Source of the DNA: Bacteroidia bacterium
GTDB taxonomy: Bacteria > Bacteroidota > Bacteroidia > SpSt-205
Length of the DNA: 62,304 nt
Direction of reading: 5' to 3'
NCBI GenBank assembly: GCA_026413325.1
Contig: JANZYW010000004.1
Location: 1 to 62,304, forward strand
Shown: positions 37,616 through 44,133 of the stretch, in pieces
Numbering within the stretch: position 1 is the first letter of the stretch
Layout: each line of letters starts with the position of its first letter
Made by a program: the position numbers and the translations under genes
Notes under the pieces: model-generated
Told to the model about the DNA's origin: nothing
Database searches by the model: none
What the model saw: only the letters and a program-made list of their open reading frames with translations

Positions 37616-37627
37616 AAATTTGGCACA

Positions 37628-37634
37628 TACTTTG
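37628..37634 (+). promoter_or_regulatory. Candidate -7 variant (TACTTTG) before the LPP20 gene
   Basis: A 7-base variant, one base shorter than TAnnTTTG, in the context ACATACTTTGCCGCA, 17 nt before ATG 37652. Nearly the same string precedes lpxK on the minus strand. Confidence 0.35.
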
Positions 37635-37651
37635 CCGCACTTCCTTATGCT

Positions 37652-38287
37652 ATGAAAACGCTTGTCATCGTACTCGTCGGGCTCATGAGCTTAGGGCTCG
37701 CCCAGACGACTGAAAAAGAAGCTAAGAAAGAGATTCAGCGAAAGGCTATCAAAGAGGCCCGCAAAGAAGCGAAGCGGTTCAAAAAAGGAGGTTACGATGT
37801 GACACCGGGTTCCTTGCCGATGGAGAAGCAGTTAGAGTACACCTGGATCCGTCTCTACCAGCGAGATGAAAAAGGACAGTCGCTTTATCTGAGCGCAGAT
37901 GGAAATGCCGTCGCTGAGACTCGAACGGCAGCGGAGATGCAGGCCTTAGAAGCGGCTAAGCTCAACCTTGCTGGTCAGTTAGAGACCTTTATTCGGGCAA
38001 TCATCGAAGCCAATATAGCCAATGCTCAGCTCAATACCGAAGAGGCTGCTTCTGTAACGGAGTTTTTAGCGGGAGCTAAAAATGTAATCGTAACTACTCT
38101 GAGCCAAGTGGAGCCCGCTTTCAAGATTTATCGCAACTTGCCCAATAAAAATGTGGAAGTGAATTTGAAGTTACTGGTCAATCGAGAACAAGTCCTTCAA
38201 GAGGCAAAGAAGCAAGTTCGGCAGGAGCTGCGTGAGCGGCTGAAAGGGCTACAAGAAAAGGTCGATCGCCTGTTACCTCTGCAGTGA
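37652..38287 (+). CDS. LPP20-domain secreted protein
   Basis: A 211-aa protein with a signal peptide (MKTLVIVLVGLMSLGLAQ), a Lys/Glu-rich helical segment, and an LPP20/FlgT-N-like core: ADGNAVAETRTAAEMQALEAAKLNLAGQLETFI, then VEVNLKLLVNREQVLQEAKKQVRQELRERL. LPP20 proteins are envelope proteins of unclear role. It is the first of four closely spaced genes ending in the 41005 membrane gene; its TGA overlaps the next ATG by one base. Confidence 0.78.
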   Translation: MKTLVIVLVGLMSLGLAQTTEKEAKKEIQRKAIKEARKEAKRFKKGGYDVTPGSLPMEKQLEYTWIRLYQRDEKGQSLYLSADGNAVAETRTAAEMQALEAAKLNLAGQLETFIRAIIEANIANAQLNTEEAASVTEFLAGAKNVIVTTLSQVEPAFKIYRNLPNKNVEVNLKLLVNREQVLQEAKKQVRQELRERLKGLQEKVDRLLPLQ

Positions 38288-39150
38288 TGCGGATTCTCTG
38301 GGGCTTGGCCTGTGGGATAGCGGGACTTCTTTGGAGCCAGGAGCGAATGGTATCTGGCTTCGCGGAAGTGGAGCTGCTACCGGGATGGTCCATCGAACGG
38401 GCTCAGCGGCAAGCACAGCAGCTGGCTATCCTGCAGGCACTCCAGAGCACGTTTCCTAATCATATTGCGCAGGCCAGTAAGTATCTCATAGATAATAGGA
38501 CGGAAGGGCGTCAGGCTCGAACGCAAACGTACTTTTACCTCACAGCCGATCAATATATCGGCGGGGAGTGGCTTCAGACCACGGATGTGCGATTTTCTAC
38601 GGAAGTGCGGAAAGGGCAGGTATGGGTCACTTGCAAAATAAGAGGTCGAGCTCGACCTCGTTTGAATCCGCCCCTTCCCCTGGAGCTGCGTACGCTCCGC
38701 TGCAGAGACACTGCTTGCACCACTACCGATTTCCTTTCTGGGGATCCCTTCTACCTCTCCTTTCGCAGTGTGGTACCAGGCTACTTGCAGGTTTTCTGGG
38801 AAGATTCGGGACGGGTATATCGCCTTCTCCCCTATCAAAATCAGCGTCAAAACGCCTGGCCTGTTCGGGGAGATACTACCTATCTCTTCTTTTCCTCGGA
38901 GCCTCAGCACCGTTCGGAGGCTTTCTGGACAGATGAACTTCTGCTCACGGCAGAGAAACCCGAAGTACTCCATCGCATCTATGTGCTTTTCTCTCAGCAT
39001 CCGCTGAGTGCGCCGCCAGAGCGATTTGACCCAACTGTTGGGTTTCATGTAGTGGATTTCGATAGTTTTCAGGAGTGGTTATTGGCGGAAAGACTTCGAC
39101 TTTCTGATTTGAATGTACGATACATAGACATAAGTGTGCGACAGCGATGA
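38287..39150 (+). CDS. Secreted DUF4384-domain protein
   Basis: A 287-aa protein with a signal peptide (MRILWGLACGIAGLLWSQ). The N-terminal part resembles LPP20/FlgT-type domains (ERAQRQAQQLAILQALQSTF). The middle carries the DUF4384 pattern FLSGDPFYLSFRSVVPGYLQVFWEDSGRVYRLLPYQ. DUF4384 occurs in other bacteria next to or fused with caspase-like domains. ATG 38287 is preferred to GTG 38284. The stop overlaps the caspase gene by 4 nt, so the two products are probably made together and act in the same compartment. Confidence 0.72.
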   Translation: MRILWGLACGIAGLLWSQERMVSGFAEVELLPGWSIERAQRQAQQLAILQALQSTFPNHIAQASKYLIDNRTEGRQARTQTYFYLTADQYIGGEWLQTTDVRFSTEVRKGQVWVTCKIRGRARPRLNPPLPLELRTLRCRDTACTTTDFLSGDPFYLSFRSVVPGYLQVFWEDSGRVYRLLPYQNQRQNAWPVRGDTTYLFFSSEPQHRSEAFWTDELLLTAEKPEVLHRIYVLFSQHPLSAPPERFDPTVGFHVVDFDSFQEWLLAERLRLSDLNVRYIDISVRQR

Positions 39151-40991
39151 GAATATCCCTTTTAGGATTGGCGATCTGGTTGTCAGCCCAGCCCTATAAA
39201 GATTTGGAGGGGCATATGGGCACGGTAAATGCGGCCGTATTCTCTTCTGACAGCCGCTATCTACTCACAGCCAGCAGTGACCGTACGATTCGGCTCTGGT
39301 ATATCCCACAGGGTGCGCCCTTAGCTCGGTTTACGGGGGCCACTGCCAGTATAAATGCTCTTACTGTTCCTGTCGATACCGCTGGATCATTTTGGGGTGC
39401 TTCCAGCGATGGGAAGGTATACCAATGGAGCCTTCACCAGTATCGGAGTTCGGCGAGAGGAGAAGGAGAGCGCTCCTCCCAGAGTTTTAAGCCGCTTCGT
39501 ACGGAAGCACTCAGCCGTCGAGTCATCAAGACAGGTCCTTCTGAGGTCTGGGAAGCCTTGAGTTTTTACCCGGACAAGTCCCTCATATATGCTCTGGGTA
39601 GAACAGGTCGCCTTATAGCTTGGGACTCCCAGGAAGGATGGCTGCAAACTTTTCAGGATACTTCGGGTGTGGCCTATGCGCTACTTTTCTCGGAACGAGT
39701 GAAGACTCTGTATGTAGGCAGTGGAAGCGGACAGATACTGGCACTGAATCCCAACACGCTCGGCGTTCAGCGTGTGCTGCGTGGCCATACTCGAGGGGTG
39801 CGCGGACTTGCCCTGAGCCCGGATGAGCGCTTCTTAGCCAGTGCAGGCCTGGATGGGAAGGTGATGCTGTGGACTCTACCAGAGGGACTTCGCACACGCA
39901 CGCTGGAGAAGCACAGTGACGGTGTACGAGCTGTTTCTTTCAGCCCAGATGGACGTTTCCTGGCCAGTGCGGGCAAAGATGGTCTTATATGCATCTGGAA
40001 CGTCGCTTCCGGTCGCTTAGAGAAAACTATCTCGGTGGAAGCGCCCCTGTGGACCATCGCATTCAGCCCGAATGGTCAGTATCTCGTAGCCGGAGGAGAG
40101 GGTGGCCTTCTCCGTCTCTGGCGTATCGACCAACTGGGTATTCGTCCGATTCAGATTATCGCCGAAACAGATTCTCTATACGCTCCCCCGGTGGATATCG
40201 AAGACAATGTTCCGCAGTGCCCGTCTGTGAAGAATCATCGTTATGCATTTATTGTAGGGAACGAAGACTACCGAAGCTTCCAGCCCTCATTCACCCCTAC
40301 GATGAATGTTCCGTATGCTGTTCGGGATGCGTATGCTTTTCGCATGTATGCAGAGCAGATGCTGGGCATCCCCTCTCGAAATATTGTATTTCTACAAAAT
40401 GCCACCAGTGCCCAGATTCGGCGAGAGATGGAGAAGCTTTCTCTCCTTACGCAAGTGAGCGGGGGGAAGGCAGAGATATTTTTCTACTATGCAGGGCATG
40501 GGGTTCCTCATCCCCGTACGCAAGAAAGTTACATTCTTCCCGTAGATGTCGCTCCCGCTGCACCAGAAGAAGGGGGGATTCGTCTCACAGATCTCATTCA
40601 AAAGCTTGGGCAGAGTGGAGTAGGGCGCGTATGGGTTATAGTAGATGCCTGTTTCAGTGGAGGAGCCCGAGAAGAAAGCCCCTTAGCAAGCAGAGGGATC
40701 CGCCTTCGTCCCAAACCCATCGTTCTCACGGGTCCCGTGATACTGATATCTGCCAGCACAGCGGATGAAGAATCCCTTCCCTATCACCAAGCTCGTCATG
40801 GACTGTTTACCTACTTTTTCTTGAAGTCGTTGAAGAGTGCGGGATGTCAACCCCGATCGCTTCAGTCGCTTTTGGAAGAAGCTGCTACGGAGACAACCCG
40901 TTACGCACTTCTTCTGCATAATAAGCTTCAGCGGCCTACTTGGATGGTCAGCCCTACCTTGTCGGAATCGATATTATCCGAGTCTTGGTAG
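39147..40991 (+). CDS. Exported WD40-repeat caspase-like (C14) protease
   Basis: A 614-aa protein. The signal peptide MRISLLGLAIWLSAQ is followed by a WD40 propeller (about 18-330; repeats such as FSSDSRYLLTASSDRTIRLW, LSPDERFLASAGLDGKVMLW, FSPDGRFLASAGKDGLICIW) and a caspase fold (about 360-600). The catalytic His is in FFYYAGHGVP (about 452) and the Cys in VIVDACFSGG (about 501), both intact. WD40-caspase proteins are usually cytoplasmic signalling proteins; this one should work outside the inner membrane. Calcium dependence and Arg/Lys specificity of metacaspases are possible but unproven. Coupled to the DUF4384 gene. Confidence 0.88.
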   Translation: MRISLLGLAIWLSAQPYKDLEGHMGTVNAAVFSSDSRYLLTASSDRTIRLWYIPQGAPLARFTGATASINALTVPVDTAGSFWGASSDGKVYQWSLHQYRSSARGEGERSSQSFKPLRTEALSRRVIKTGPSEVWEALSFYPDKSLIYALGRTGRLIAWDSQEGWLQTFQDTSGVAYALLFSERVKTLYVGSGSGQILALNPNTLGVQRVLRGHTRGVRGLALSPDERFLASAGLDGKVMLWTLPEGLRTRTLEKHSDGVRAVSFSPDGRFLASAGKDGLICIWNVASGRLEKTISVEAPLWTIAFSPNGQYLVAGGEGGLLRLWRIDQLGIRPIQIIAETDSLYAPPVDIEDNVPQCPSVKNHRYAFIVGNEDYRSFQPSFTPTMNVPYAVRDAYAFRMYAEQMLGIPSRNIVFLQNATSAQIRREMEKLSLLTQVSGGKAEIFFYYAGHGVPHPRTQESYILPVDVAPAAPEEGGIRLTDLIQKLGQSGVGRVWVIVDACFSGGAREESPLASRGIRLRPKPIVLTGPVILISASTADEESLPYHQARHGLFTYFFLKSLKSAGCQPRSLQSLLEEAATETTRYALLLHNKLQRPTWMVSPTLSESILSESW

Positions 40992-40992
40992 T

Positions 40993-41000
40993 TACCTTCG
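40993..41000 (+). promoter_or_regulatory. Probable -7 element (TACCTTCG) of the small membrane protein
   Basis: One mismatch to TAnnTTTG, 4 nt before GTG 41005; the same TTCG variant precedes ppk1 and nhaD. Confidence 0.4.
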
Positions 41001-41004
41001 CAGG

Positions 41005-41472
41005 GTGGATAAGTATAAGCTGTGGAGTTACCTAAGCTTTTTTCTCTCGGGGGTCGCTTTCGTTGCCCTTTTTCTTCCTCTTTTTCGAGTGGTGGTGTGG
41101 GACACGGGGAAGCAAGGGTATCTTTTCTTGTGGGGAGGGCATGGGGAGTTCGGGGCGAGCGTTCCTGCTGTATTGTATGGGATTGCGGGGGGATGGGGTT
41201 TGGCGGGGGTAGTGTCTTTGGTCTATGCAGGTGAGCTGCTTCGTCGTCAGAGCCGCTCCGCTATCGCCTGGATGAACTGGGCTGCCTTTTTTCTGGCGAT
41301 GGAACTCATATTTCTCTTGGTGATCGCCGAGGAGATCCTGACAGACTTGCGAGTGCAAGAGCTTCATGCGGATAGTTTTGCCCAGGTAGGAAGCTGGCTG
41401 GGCTTTTTGGTCTTGATAGGGTTGCTTTTCTTGCCAGGCAGGGCGAGGAAAGCTCTTTTCCCCCGCAAATAG
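41005..41472 (+). CDS. Small four-helix integral membrane protein
   Basis: A 155-aa protein with four hydrophobic helices (SYLSFFLSGVAFVALFLPLF; AVLYGIAGGWGLAGVVSLVY; WAAFFLAMELIFLLVI; LGFLVLIGLLFLPG) and a basic C-terminus. No family recognised. The ORF track extends left into the caspase gene; GTG 41005, 13 nt after the caspase stop and 4 nt after a -7-like box, begins right before helix 1. Its place directly after the caspase suggests a membrane partner, which is inference. Confidence 0.65.
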   Translation: MDKYKLWSYLSFFLSGVAFVALFLPLFRVVVWDTGKQGYLFLWGGHGEFGASVPAVLYGIAGGWGLAGVVSLVYAGELLRRQSRSAIAWMNWAAFFLAMELIFLLVIAEEILTDLRVQELHADSFAQVGSWLGFLVLIGLLFLPGRARKALFPRK

Positions 41473-41581: not shown

Positions 41582-43333
41582 TTAGTTGTAAATATCCCAC
41601 TGGACCCCAAATGCGAAGGCCCGTCCCGGCATGGGATACCAGGCAGTGAGATAGTAGCCCTTATCGATGAGATTTTCTGTCGCCCGTTCAATGCGAAGGT
41701 ATACCATCACCCGCCGAATATGAATCGAGAGATAGGGATCGACCCACATGTAGGCTGGTTGAGGAGGAAATGGTGTGGGAGGTAGGTAGTACAGACCTAA
41801 ATGGGGTTCATAAGCAAGCAGGCGAAAGGAAGAAAAGCCCGACAAACGAACACCCACCTGGTAAACGGGAGGACGCCCTGGAAGCTGTCCCTGCCAGAAG
41901 ATTTGTACCCATCCACTTAGGAGAGGCAAAATGCTCGCCCAGGGGGAGCTTCCCGCTGTGCTATAGATCTTTTGTAACGTAAGACCAGATATTATCCCTA
42001 TGTTTGGCCAGGAAAGTCCTCCTTCGCAGGTGATCCCGTACAGTAAGAGGGAACTGCCAGAATGAGGTGTACTTTCCCATAGCCAGGGCCTTTCATAAAG
42101 GGTTCCCCATCCGGTTATCTGTAGAGGGAGGATTGTCGTGTCTCGGCTTGGAAAAGTGTACTTCACCCACAATCGAGAAAACCGTTCATTAGGAGGTACC
42201 TGCTGTACCAGAGCGCTGCGGTAAGTGAGCCAGGGGAGATTTCGGCTATGATAGGCTGCTCCGATGCGATAAGAGCGGAAATACCCCTCAGCCCACAACC
42301 CAAAGGCAGGGGGAGGGGCTTCTGGGGTGAGCCACATACGATAGTAGGCATAGGTGGTAAGAAACGATAACTGGATGTGGCTTTGGGTCTCTAAGGAGAG
42401 TAGGTTCCAGCTGCGGAACAAAGGGGATCCCGCACCAGTGAGTCGTTGGAAGCGCATCTCCATCTGCCAGGAGTCCCACCTAAGAGTGAGAGTGCCCTTG
42501 TGCCAGGTCTGCTGCAAGTTGGATTGAAATGCCAGAGTTTCCTGGACGAAAGGAGATCCGACCTGGAGAGCGGGTGGACTACTACACAGAAGGCGGTTCT
42601 CTCCGACCTCTCCTGTAGCGGTAAGGAAAAACCGATGGCTTATGCGAAAGCCTACCTCCGACCTTACATATCGATACCAGCGTCGCCAGCGAAGACTCAT
42701 GAGACGTACGGGTTGCCTTTCCTTCTGAAAAGCATCCCAGGGAGAAGCCGATGTATCAAAGAGTACTCCTCCGTTGATCTGGTCTTGTAGCTGATTCCAA
42801 ACCCCCTCTGCACGCAGCCACAAGTGGGGGCGTAAGAGCGCGTAGATGGCGCCCCCTGCACTATAGTGGTCCGACGTTTGTCCTACGTATTCTCCCTCTC
42901 GCGTACGTCTTTTGTATACAAGGGAGAGCCCTCCCCGCCTTCGGAAAGTCTGCCCATGAGAGAGAGAGAGAAGCTGTGTGCGTCTGCTGGATTGGTCGAA
43001 CCGAATCCGTGTGTACGGCTTTTCCGTCCATAGAATCGGTACATGGCGTAGGAGATAAACTTCCTGACTTGCGGGGGAAGGTGCGCTTTCCAGTTCTTCA
43101 TATTGAGGGATGCCTTTTACCCAGAGAGCATAAGGTTTGAAGTAGGTCAATCGGTGAGCGAAAGAAGCCATCGTATCCAAGGGATCATACCAGGGTAGGT
43201 AGGCGGGTTGGTACACGGGGGGGAGGCCCCCACTGGTGTCTCCCAAGAAAGAAAGCAAACGGGTTTCCTGGCCAAATAGGGACCTCCCGAAAAGGAGGAC
43301 CCCAGTTAGAGCTCTCGCACCAACTCCGTAAAT
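41582..43333 (-). CDS. Putative beta-barrel porin, non-canonical start
   Basis: About 583 aa of alternating, aromatic-rich beta strands ending in PMPGRAFAFGVQWDIYN, the usual finish of Bacteroidota putative porins with a GRxFxFGxxW last strand. A signal-like segment RALTGVLLFGRSLFGQ precedes the barrel. No ATG, GTG or TTG lies in frame between the pnp frame and that signal; ATT 43333 is the nearest reasonable start and is used here. The frame extends to ATG 43477, but that would put about 50 basic, unrelated residues ahead of the signal. Coupled to pnp (28-nt overlap). Confidence 0.65.
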   Translation of the reverse strand: MYGVGARALTGVLLFGRSLFGQETRLLSFLGDTSGGLPPVYQPAYLPWYDPLDTMASFAHRLTYFKPYALWVKGIPQYEELESAPSPASQEVYLLRHVPILWTEKPYTRIRFDQSSRRTQLLSLSHGQTFRRRGGLSLVYKRRTREGEYVGQTSDHYSAGGAIYALLRPHLWLRAEGVWNQLQDQINGGVLFDTSASPWDAFQKERQPVRLMSLRWRRWYRYVRSEVGFRISHRFFLTATGEVGENRLLCSSPPALQVGSPFVQETLAFQSNLQQTWHKGTLTLRWDSWQMEMRFQRLTGAGSPLFRSWNLLSLETQSHIQLSFLTTYAYYRMWLTPEAPPPAFGLWAEGYFRSYRIGAAYHSRNLPWLTYRSALVQQVPPNERFSRLWVKYTFPSRDTTILPLQITGWGTLYERPWLWESTPHSGSSLLLYGITCEGGLSWPNIGIISGLTLQKIYSTAGSSPWASILPLLSGWVQIFWQGQLPGRPPVYQVGVRLSGFSSFRLLAYEPHLGLYYLPPTPFPPQPAYMWVDPYLSIHIRRVMVYLRIERATENLIDKGYYLTAWYPMPGRAFAFGVQWDIYN

Positions 43334-44133
43334 ATCTGTGTGAGTTTGGGTTCGGCTTCGTTGGCTACCTGGATGATCTCTTCTAAAGCGACTGGTTTGA
43401 GGTGGTCGGGATCTCCGATATCGGTGACGATAGACATGGCGAAGACCCGCATGCCCATATGATTCGCTACGATGCACTCCGGCACAGTGGACATTCCGAC
43501 CACATCCCCTCCGATAATCCGAAGGAATCGGTATTCCGCCCGGGTCTCGAGATTCGGTCCTGGCACCGCCACATATACTCCTTCTTGAACGGGGATCTGA
43601 TGCTTATGGGCTATCTCCCGGGCCCGAGCGATGAGATCGGGGTGATAGGGAGCACTCATGTCAGGGAAACGGGGACCTAACTGGTCCAGGTTGATACCTC
43701 TAAGCGGATTCTCAGGGAGTAGGTTGATATGGTCGCGGATAATCATTAGGTCTCCGAGCTTATATGTGAGATTGAGCGCGCCCGCTGCATTCGAAAGCAA
43801 AAGGGTGTGTGCCCCCAGTAACTTCATGATGCGGATGGGATAAGTGATTTGATACATAGAATAGCCCTCGTAGTAATGGAACCTCCCTTGCATGGCTACC
43901 ACCCGCTTTCCGCCTAAGCGGCCGAATATCAGCCTACCAAAGTGACTTTCGACCGTACTAATGGGAAAGTGAGGGATGAAGTTGTAGGCCAGCTGGTGCT
44001 CCTTTTCGATTGCATCTGCCAGGCGTCCCAGCCCCGTCCCTAAAACGATCCCGACCTCGACTTCGCCGGTGAAATACCGACGAATGTACTCCAGTGTTTC
44101 TCGGAAGTGATTATAGGCTTCTGTTGTGGTCAT
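43306..44133 (-). CDS. Purine-nucleoside phosphorylase (trimeric type)
   Basis: A 275-aa enzyme splitting inosine or guanosine with phosphate. Signatures are GIVLGTGLG, VESHFGRL, GRFHYYEGY, LSNAAGALN, VAVPGPNLETRAEYR and VGMSTVPECIVA, typical of the high-molecular-mass mammalian-like PNP/XapA family. ATG 44133 (codon 7 of the track ORF) fits the family start TTTEAYNHF. It overlaps lpxK upstream by 23 nt and the porin gene downstream by 28 nt. Confidence 0.94.
   Translation of the reverse strand: MTTTEAYNHFRETLEYIRRYFTGEVEVGIVLGTGLGRLADAIEKEHQLAYNFIPHFPISTVESHFGRLIFGRLGGKRVVAMQGRFHYYEGYSMYQITYPIRIMKLLGAHTLLLSNAAGALNLTYKLGDLMIIRDHINLLPENPLRGINLDQLGPRFPDMSAPYHPDLIARAREIAHKHQIPVQEGVYVAVPGPNLETRAEYRFLRIIGGDVVGMSTVPECIVANHMGMRVFAMSIVTDIGDPDHLKPVALEEIIQVANEAEPKLTQIFTELVREL

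Follow-up and report, generated by a model that had tools for sequence, protein, structure and literature searches.

What is a caspase for when a bacterium sends it out of the cytoplasm? Biologists have long asked what bacterial caspase homologues do, mostly with cell death or phage defence in mind, and the question is posed again by a contig of 62,304 nucleotides from a Bacteroidia bacterium (JANZYW010000004.1, whose whole length we call "the window"). At 37652-41472 on the forward strand, four co-directional open reading frames encode an LPP20-like protein (protein 1), a DUF4384-like protein (protein 2), a WD40-caspase (protein 3) and a membrane protein with four helices. The genes are packed as tightly as the original prediction had them: genes 1-3 overlap by 1-4 nt, gene 4 begins 13 nt downstream, and comparable junctions recur in several relatives of the window's genome. 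Here, we argue, with a confidence that we would call evenly balanced, that this cassette encodes a cell-envelope module built around an exported orthocaspase and produced under a sigma-54-type stress promoter as part of an envelope-stress or proteostasis regulon. The evidence suggests a role in envelope protein quality or in signalling, rather than in phage defence.

Does this caspase really leave the cytoplasm? Gingipains are secreted caspase-fold proteases. Our own calls of export and of transmembrane helices come from leader pattern, hydrophobicity and charge bias in sequences and alignments, and for leaders there is a useful guide, the "Q-rule": most signal peptidase I substrates of Bacteroidota start with Gln once cleaved, and this Gln is later cyclised (PMC5837995, PMC10653852). 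Across the genus, proteins 1-3 carry divergent hydrophobic leaders that end in Ala or Ser before Gln, and the mature N-terminal Gln is kept in all aligned DUF4384 and caspase orthologues and in 10/10 LPP20-like proteins of the genus; exported caspases from distant cassettes obey the rule too. Protein 1 of the window genome has a signal peptidase I-type leader ending in LA before the Gln and lacks a lipobox Cys; in the relative G012, a lipobox-like Cys takes the place of the Gln, so that this orthologue, like an LPP20-DUF4384 fusion in genome G401, resembles a lipoprotein. Four hydrophobic helices and an N-in/C-in charge bias are found in 6/6 orthologues of the membrane protein. Leaders conserved in this way make a strong case that proteins 1-3 are exported via Sec and signal peptidase I to a periplasmic or outer-envelope location, where the original prediction had placed the protease and two partners. 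Its further claim, that the bacterial caspase-like systems described so far act in the cytoplasm, was overstated: a 2012 survey had already noted that some caspase homologues have N-terminal helices, probably signal peptides, and had suggested extracellular roles (PMC3501461).

Is the exported protein a working protease? Pfam finds in protein 3 a WD40 propeller (E=1.4e-44) and a Peptidase_C14 domain (PF00656; 66.5 bits vs a cut-off of 21.4, E=3.7e-18), and the alignment of 12 caspase orthologues leaves His451, Asp500 and Cys502 invariant in every one, so that the intact His/Cys dyad that had been claimed is confirmed and the catalytic residues are well supported. The domain also aligns through its catalytic His and Cys with MALT1 paracaspase, a weak match (E 0.027). 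A PF00656 match above cut-off, a His-Cys dyad and an acidic DxC residue (D500) are the marks of an orthocaspase; in orthocaspases and metacaspases, this acidic residue has a pocket role for basic (Arg/Lys) P1 residues (PMC6426788), and Asp500 suggests that Arg or Lys at P1 would suit this enzyme as well. Prokaryotic caspase homologues with WD40 repeats, signal-like helices or DUF4384 are already known (PMC3501461, PMC8283722, PMC6426788, PMC7475262).

What, then, are its companions? Protein 1 had been called an LPP20 protein, and the name is acceptable at the level of fold only: a profile search matches the Pfam LPP20 family (PF02169) neither to it nor to anything else in the genome, yet Foldseek, given its AlphaFold model (pLDDT 87.5), places H. 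pylori Tip-alpha and Lpp20 (5ok8) within the top five PDB matches, weakly (probability 0.87-0.94, TM (target) 0.47-0.53, E 0.05-0.13). The signal peptide that went with the name stands. Homology of protein 1 to other LPP20-DUF4384 proteins was sought by profile-profile comparison and was not significant, and sequence searches of the PDB with the LPP20-like and DUF4384 proteins gave chance-level matches only. Protein 2 matches DUF4384 (PF14326) over the full domain length at 24.1 bits (E=3.7e-5), just below the curated cut-off of 27 bits. Its model predicts a beta-alpha-beta-rich N domain and then a beta-sandwich; a fold search with the whole model returned generic beta-sandwich matches only, FlgT not among them, and the N domain as an LPP20-like one was not significant in a profile-profile test. 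DUF4384 is a known accessory domain of caspases (23/473 in cyanobacteria; PMC8283722, PMC3501461), seldom mentioned in the open-licence papers that we searched.

Is the grouping of these genes more than an accident of one contig? In the genus, which comprises 11 genomes of hot-spring "Bacteroidia bacterium" (metagenome-assembled, the window's own being G000), all four genes are core (11/11), and one Peptidase_C14 gene was found per genome, again in 11/11; in a same-family relative (G011, 66% complete), the caspase gene was not found. The LPP20-like gene and the DUF4384 gene lie side by side in 14/14 loci (the 11 genus genomes, G012, ACE_BAC9 and Co_bin.136), and in 10 of these 14 the caspase directly follows the pair; in Co_bin.136, it precedes the pair and has tetratricopeptide repeats (TPR) instead of WD40. 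The four-helix gene adjoins the caspase in only 7 of the 11 genus genomes and is located elsewhere in 4. Because the genes flanking the cassette differ from genome to genome, the linkage cannot be put down to background synteny; the gene association is well supported, and the partners are conserved beyond chance, as had been proposed. For the same reason, we regard the neighbouring subtilase of the type IX secretion system (T9SS), which the original prediction had pointed out beside the cassette, as an incidental neighbour: 9/11 genus genomes have an orthologue, but just G000 and G009 have it directly beside the cassette, and in G006 a single gene separates the two (2-3 of 11 in all).

And what would turn the cassette on? 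A GG-N10-G[CT] element is kept upstream of it in 10/11 genomes. Within the genus, it sits at -28 to -34 (in G012 it lies further upstream, depending on the start codon chosen). The window's copy fits TGGCAC-N5-TTGC, with GG and GC 10 nt apart, and the first gene of the cassette is the sole one of 51 window genes with a GG-N10-GC element just upstream; 14-15 others have a TAnnTTTG box, mostly 5-16 nt before the start. We read the regulon in a complete relative, G006, over 2.01 Mb (89% of the genome). With the general sigma-54 consensus, 17 of 25 strong matches in the first 1.61 Mb fall in the -36..-26 band, where 1.3 are expected; with a refined matrix, there are 30 sites at -37..-25 where 3.0 are expected, a count to be read knowing that the matrix was refined on its own matches, the G006 cassette site included. 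In G006 the element precedes this cassette, the heat-shock and protease genes dnaK, lon, clpB and clpC (Pfam identities) and a gene that we call partner X, to which we return below, and exported proteins are enriched among the genes that bear it (10/23 vs 261/1668, p=0.0016). RpoN and sigma-54 activators are encoded in the genus (seen in the relatives G006 and G008, the activators by Walker motif and Pfam), and a published survey reports an excess of sigma-54 promoters at the heat-shock genes of Bacteroidota (PMC12316311). Because cassette and dnaK/lon/clpB/clpC have this element in common, and given RpoN, its activators and the heat-shock survey, we predict that the cassette is co-regulated with proteostasis genes. 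The promoter class is well supported, and its use by sigma-54 would follow the consensus; to this extent, the earlier idea of a link to envelope stress gains from the promoters of G006.

Several observations belong beside these. The four proteostasis genes (G006:C1 503463, 1047054, 1235861 and 1842384) have the element ~27-31 nt before their starts and may together make up a sigma-54 heat-shock regulon of this thermophilic lineage of Bacteroidia. The TAnnTTTG boxes, 5-16 nt before many starts (e.g., 20089, 27853, 49268, 59527), imply at that distance very short or no mRNA leaders; 309/1358 genes of G006 have one at -22..-8. Of the loci examined, only that of G008 has a gene for a sigma-54 activator (L064:1-975; PF00158, E 1.3e-68) some 5 kb upstream of the cassette, which may be coincidence. 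Open reading frames of G006 at C1 ~134680-137551 translate a repeated FLSAHYGVET peptide and hint at a repeat array, CRISPR-like or of another kind.

Does the association reach beyond the genus? Alignments of the partners, run against 396 genomes, found the LPP20-like protein in two (the window's own and G401) and the DUF4384 protein in the window's own only; the exact subfamily is rare, and therefore we read the wider association through PF14326, which is present in 38/297 Bacteroidota genomes. With 30 genomes searched for caspases, 26 of 39 DUF4384 matches lie within 5 kb of PF00656, 25 of them on the same strand, where 0.29 are expected, an excess whose Poisson figure is exaggerated since the loci come from related genomes and are not independent. 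Among 30 DUF4384 loci that were fetched, 9 stand beside a caspase gene; in 3 the domain is fused to a caspase, in 9 to a papain-like protease and in 5 to LPP20. The papain-like (Peptidase_C1) fusions (L098, L101, L102, L105, L107, L111, L114, L117 and L118) tell us that DUF4384 goes with exported cysteine proteases of two unrelated folds. In G401, the LPP20-like and DUF4384 modules are joined in one lipoprotein, whose gene lies two genes away from that of an exported caspase; at locus L144, an LPP20-DUF4384 gene is followed directly by an exported WD40-caspase; and at L131 an exported TPR-caspase is followed by LPP20-DUF4384 and then by a cyclase with a CHASE2 sensor domain. In the open-licence literature, we found neither an exported caspase/LPP20/DUF4384(/CHASE2) set described nor a caspase operon with a heat-shock-type promoter.

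CHASE2 recurs: a CHASE2 gene lies within 5 kb of 11 DUF4384 loci. In the window genome, the single CHASE2 gene lies on another contig (C53), together with the exported partner X, and X has the promoter element in 4/4 genomes. The arrangement of a CHASE2 protein lacking an output domain and an exported X of 300 aa keeps the same order in four genus genomes (L135:32-2101, which is G000:C53; L136:6245-8294; L137; L138). A FecR-type identity for X was ruled out, there being no Pfam match.

How might the parts work together? In the module that we favour, the LPP20/DUF4384 pair would be a periplasmic scaffold or adaptor on the side of the outer membrane, holding or regulating the caspase, and the WD40 propeller (TPR in one relative) would recognise a substrate or signal. 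When envelope proteins come under stress, the caspase would make limited cuts after Arg or Lys in envelope proteins, possibly in a membrane partner—a loop of the four-helix protein that is predicted to be periplasmic holds an invariant TDLRV, one hypothetical cleavage site—and these cuts may feed back to a CHASE2-type sensor, which may stand upstream or downstream of the caspase. More broadly, and tentatively, we can imagine a periplasmic caspase pathway of Bacteroidota in which exported orthocaspases, an LPP20/DUF4384 envelope complex and CHASE2-type sensors, under sigma-54 stress promoters, both detect envelope protein damage and act on it. If true, it would be an extracytoplasmic bacterial counterpart to regulated caspase signalling.

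There is a good deal to set against this stress module, beyond the cautions attached to the counts above. In 3 of the 11 genus genomes (G002, G005 and G010), the caspase is unlinked and has no promoter element, so the caspase can work without co-transcription and an obligatory operon is argued against (whether these three form a clade, poorly resolved trees do not tell). The regulon was read in a relative and not in the window's own genome, and sigma-54 dependence is read only from a consensus. No CHASE2 gene lies near the window cassette, the link being promoter class and partner-gene homology. The LPP20-fold matches of protein 1 are weak (E > 0.01), and profile comparisons among the LPP20-like, DUF4384 and LPP20-DUF4384 families were not significant.

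Might the caspase instead be the regulatory protease of a CHASE2-type transmembrane pathway, concerned with envelope signalling and not with quality control, with the four-helix protein perhaps an additional target at its TDLRV? Genes for CHASE2 with a cyclase or SpoIIE phosphatase output do adjoin exported caspase/DUF4384 genes in other Bacteroidota, and the window genome's X, which bears the promoter element, is homologous (E 7e-19) to the X of a CHASE2-X-papain/DUF4384-caspase cluster. However, the CHASE2 protein of the genus (368 aa) has no output domain and is unlinked, and G012 (77% complete), G013 and G401 have a caspase and no CHASE2 that we could detect; we think this account possible and rather unlikely. 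A constitutive role in processing or assembling surface proteins, a housekeeping maturation that stress does not induce, would explain why single-copy core genes are kept even where dispersed, and LPP20-fold relatives form periplasmic or outer-membrane rings in flagellar motors (PMC12222027), but the promoter class is that of proteostasis genes and not the common TAnnTTTG box, and G011 apparently lacks the caspase; this we hold to be unlikely indeed. That LPP20 and DUF4384 form a functional pair, with caspase and four-helix genes mere neighbours, would suit a pair that is always adjacent beside a caspase unlinked in 3/11 and a four-helix gene unlinked in 4/11, but the caspase linkage recurs in ACE_BAC9, Co_bin.136, G401 and the 26/39 DUF4384 loci, which leaves this reading very improbable. 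Least probable of all is programmed death, phage defence or an inter-cell weapon, although PADLOC's generic caspase model matches (E 4e-17) and the authors of PMC3501461 proposed programmed cell death or fratricide for exported homologues, because an exported caspase cannot act on cytoplasmic phage processes, the gene is single-copy and core in 11/11 genus genomes, and the four proteins bring no toxin or immunity genes and no PADLOC match besides the generic caspase and repeat models.

The preferred envelope-stress module comes with the coordinates below. Just 3' of the cassette, a 631-aa frame (41582-43477, reverse strand) has no NCBIfam match and, by its sequence, resembles an outer-membrane beta-barrel protein; the start called for it falls within the adjoining purine nucleoside phosphorylase gene. 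For the membrane gene, the best start is the GTG at 41005, the alternative at 40837 overlapping the caspase by 155 bases.

Features of the caspase cassette, in window coordinates
Feature	Position	Strand	Details
Sigma-54-type promoter element (putative)	37621-37636	+	TGGCACATACTTTGCC (GG-N10-GC); 31 nt before first start codon
LPP20-fold (SHS2-like; fold putative) exported protein	37652-38287	+	ATG; 211 aa; leader MKTLVIVLVGLMSLGLA then Q
DUF4384 exported protein	38287-39150	+	ATG; 287 aa; leader MRILWGLACGIAGLLWS then Q; PF14326 just below cut-off
WD40-caspase, exported	39147-40991	+	614 aa; leader MRISLLGLAIWLSA then Q
Caspase (Peptidase_C14) domain	40239-40946	+	His451 40497-40499; Asp500 40644-40646; Cys502 40650-40652
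Four-helix membrane protein	41005-41472	+	GTG; 155 aa; N-in/C-in charge bias; conserved outer loops with WGGH, TDLRV

An exported caspase that small genomes keep as a core gene in one copy, tied to envelope proteins and to a heat-shock-type promoter, points to a housekeeping or stress role outside the cytoplasm, and the recurring caspase/LPP20/DUF4384/CHASE2 set supplies concrete, testable partners and a functional context for the uncharacterised DUF4384. How does it compare with what is known? A caspase of antiphage defence would be expected to be patchy among close relatives and to act as a cytoplasmic effector; this gene is not patchy, and its conserved Q-rule leader places it elsewhere. 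Gingipains (family C25) are likewise exported caspase-fold cysteine proteases of Bacteroidota with Arg/Lys specificity, but they are of a different family and are T9SS cargo, and we see no T9SS C-terminal domain on the window caspase.

Close to it, too, are the known prokaryotic orthocaspases (PMC3501461, PMC8283722), which also combine WD40, their commonest accessory domain, with PF00656 and its HC dyad, and some of which have N-terminal signal-like helices where ours has a leader. The window caspase differs in being clearly Sec-exported, in that its exported LPP20-like and DUF4384 partners have genes of their own and in its stress-type promoter; those surveys do not describe the exported caspase/LPP20-fold/DUF4384 gene set. 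Protein 1 has export and, by weak Foldseek matches, probably an LPP20-like fold in common with the SHS2-fold envelope proteins LPP20, FlgP and FlgT (PMC12222027), and its long helix is separated from its second strand by an insertion, which in FlgP and FlgT goes with ring formation. Unlike them, it has no Pfam LPP20 match, its insert is helical and not a beta-hairpin, and its gene adjoins a caspase and not flagellar genes.

Close as a system are the sets in other Bacteroidota of CHASE2 (cyclase or SpoIIE), caspase and DUF4384, which also have an exported WD40- or TPR-caspase, a DUF4384 protein (sometimes fused to LPP20) and a membrane protein last. The window cassette has its exported caspase adjacent to a DUF4384 gene as they do; its CHASE2 gene lies elsewhere in the genome and the last place is held by the four-helix protein. 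The best reading of these sequences, perhaps, is that we are looking at a lineage-specific variant of a Bacteroidota-wide association of caspase with (LPP20-)DUF4384 and, in places, CHASE2.

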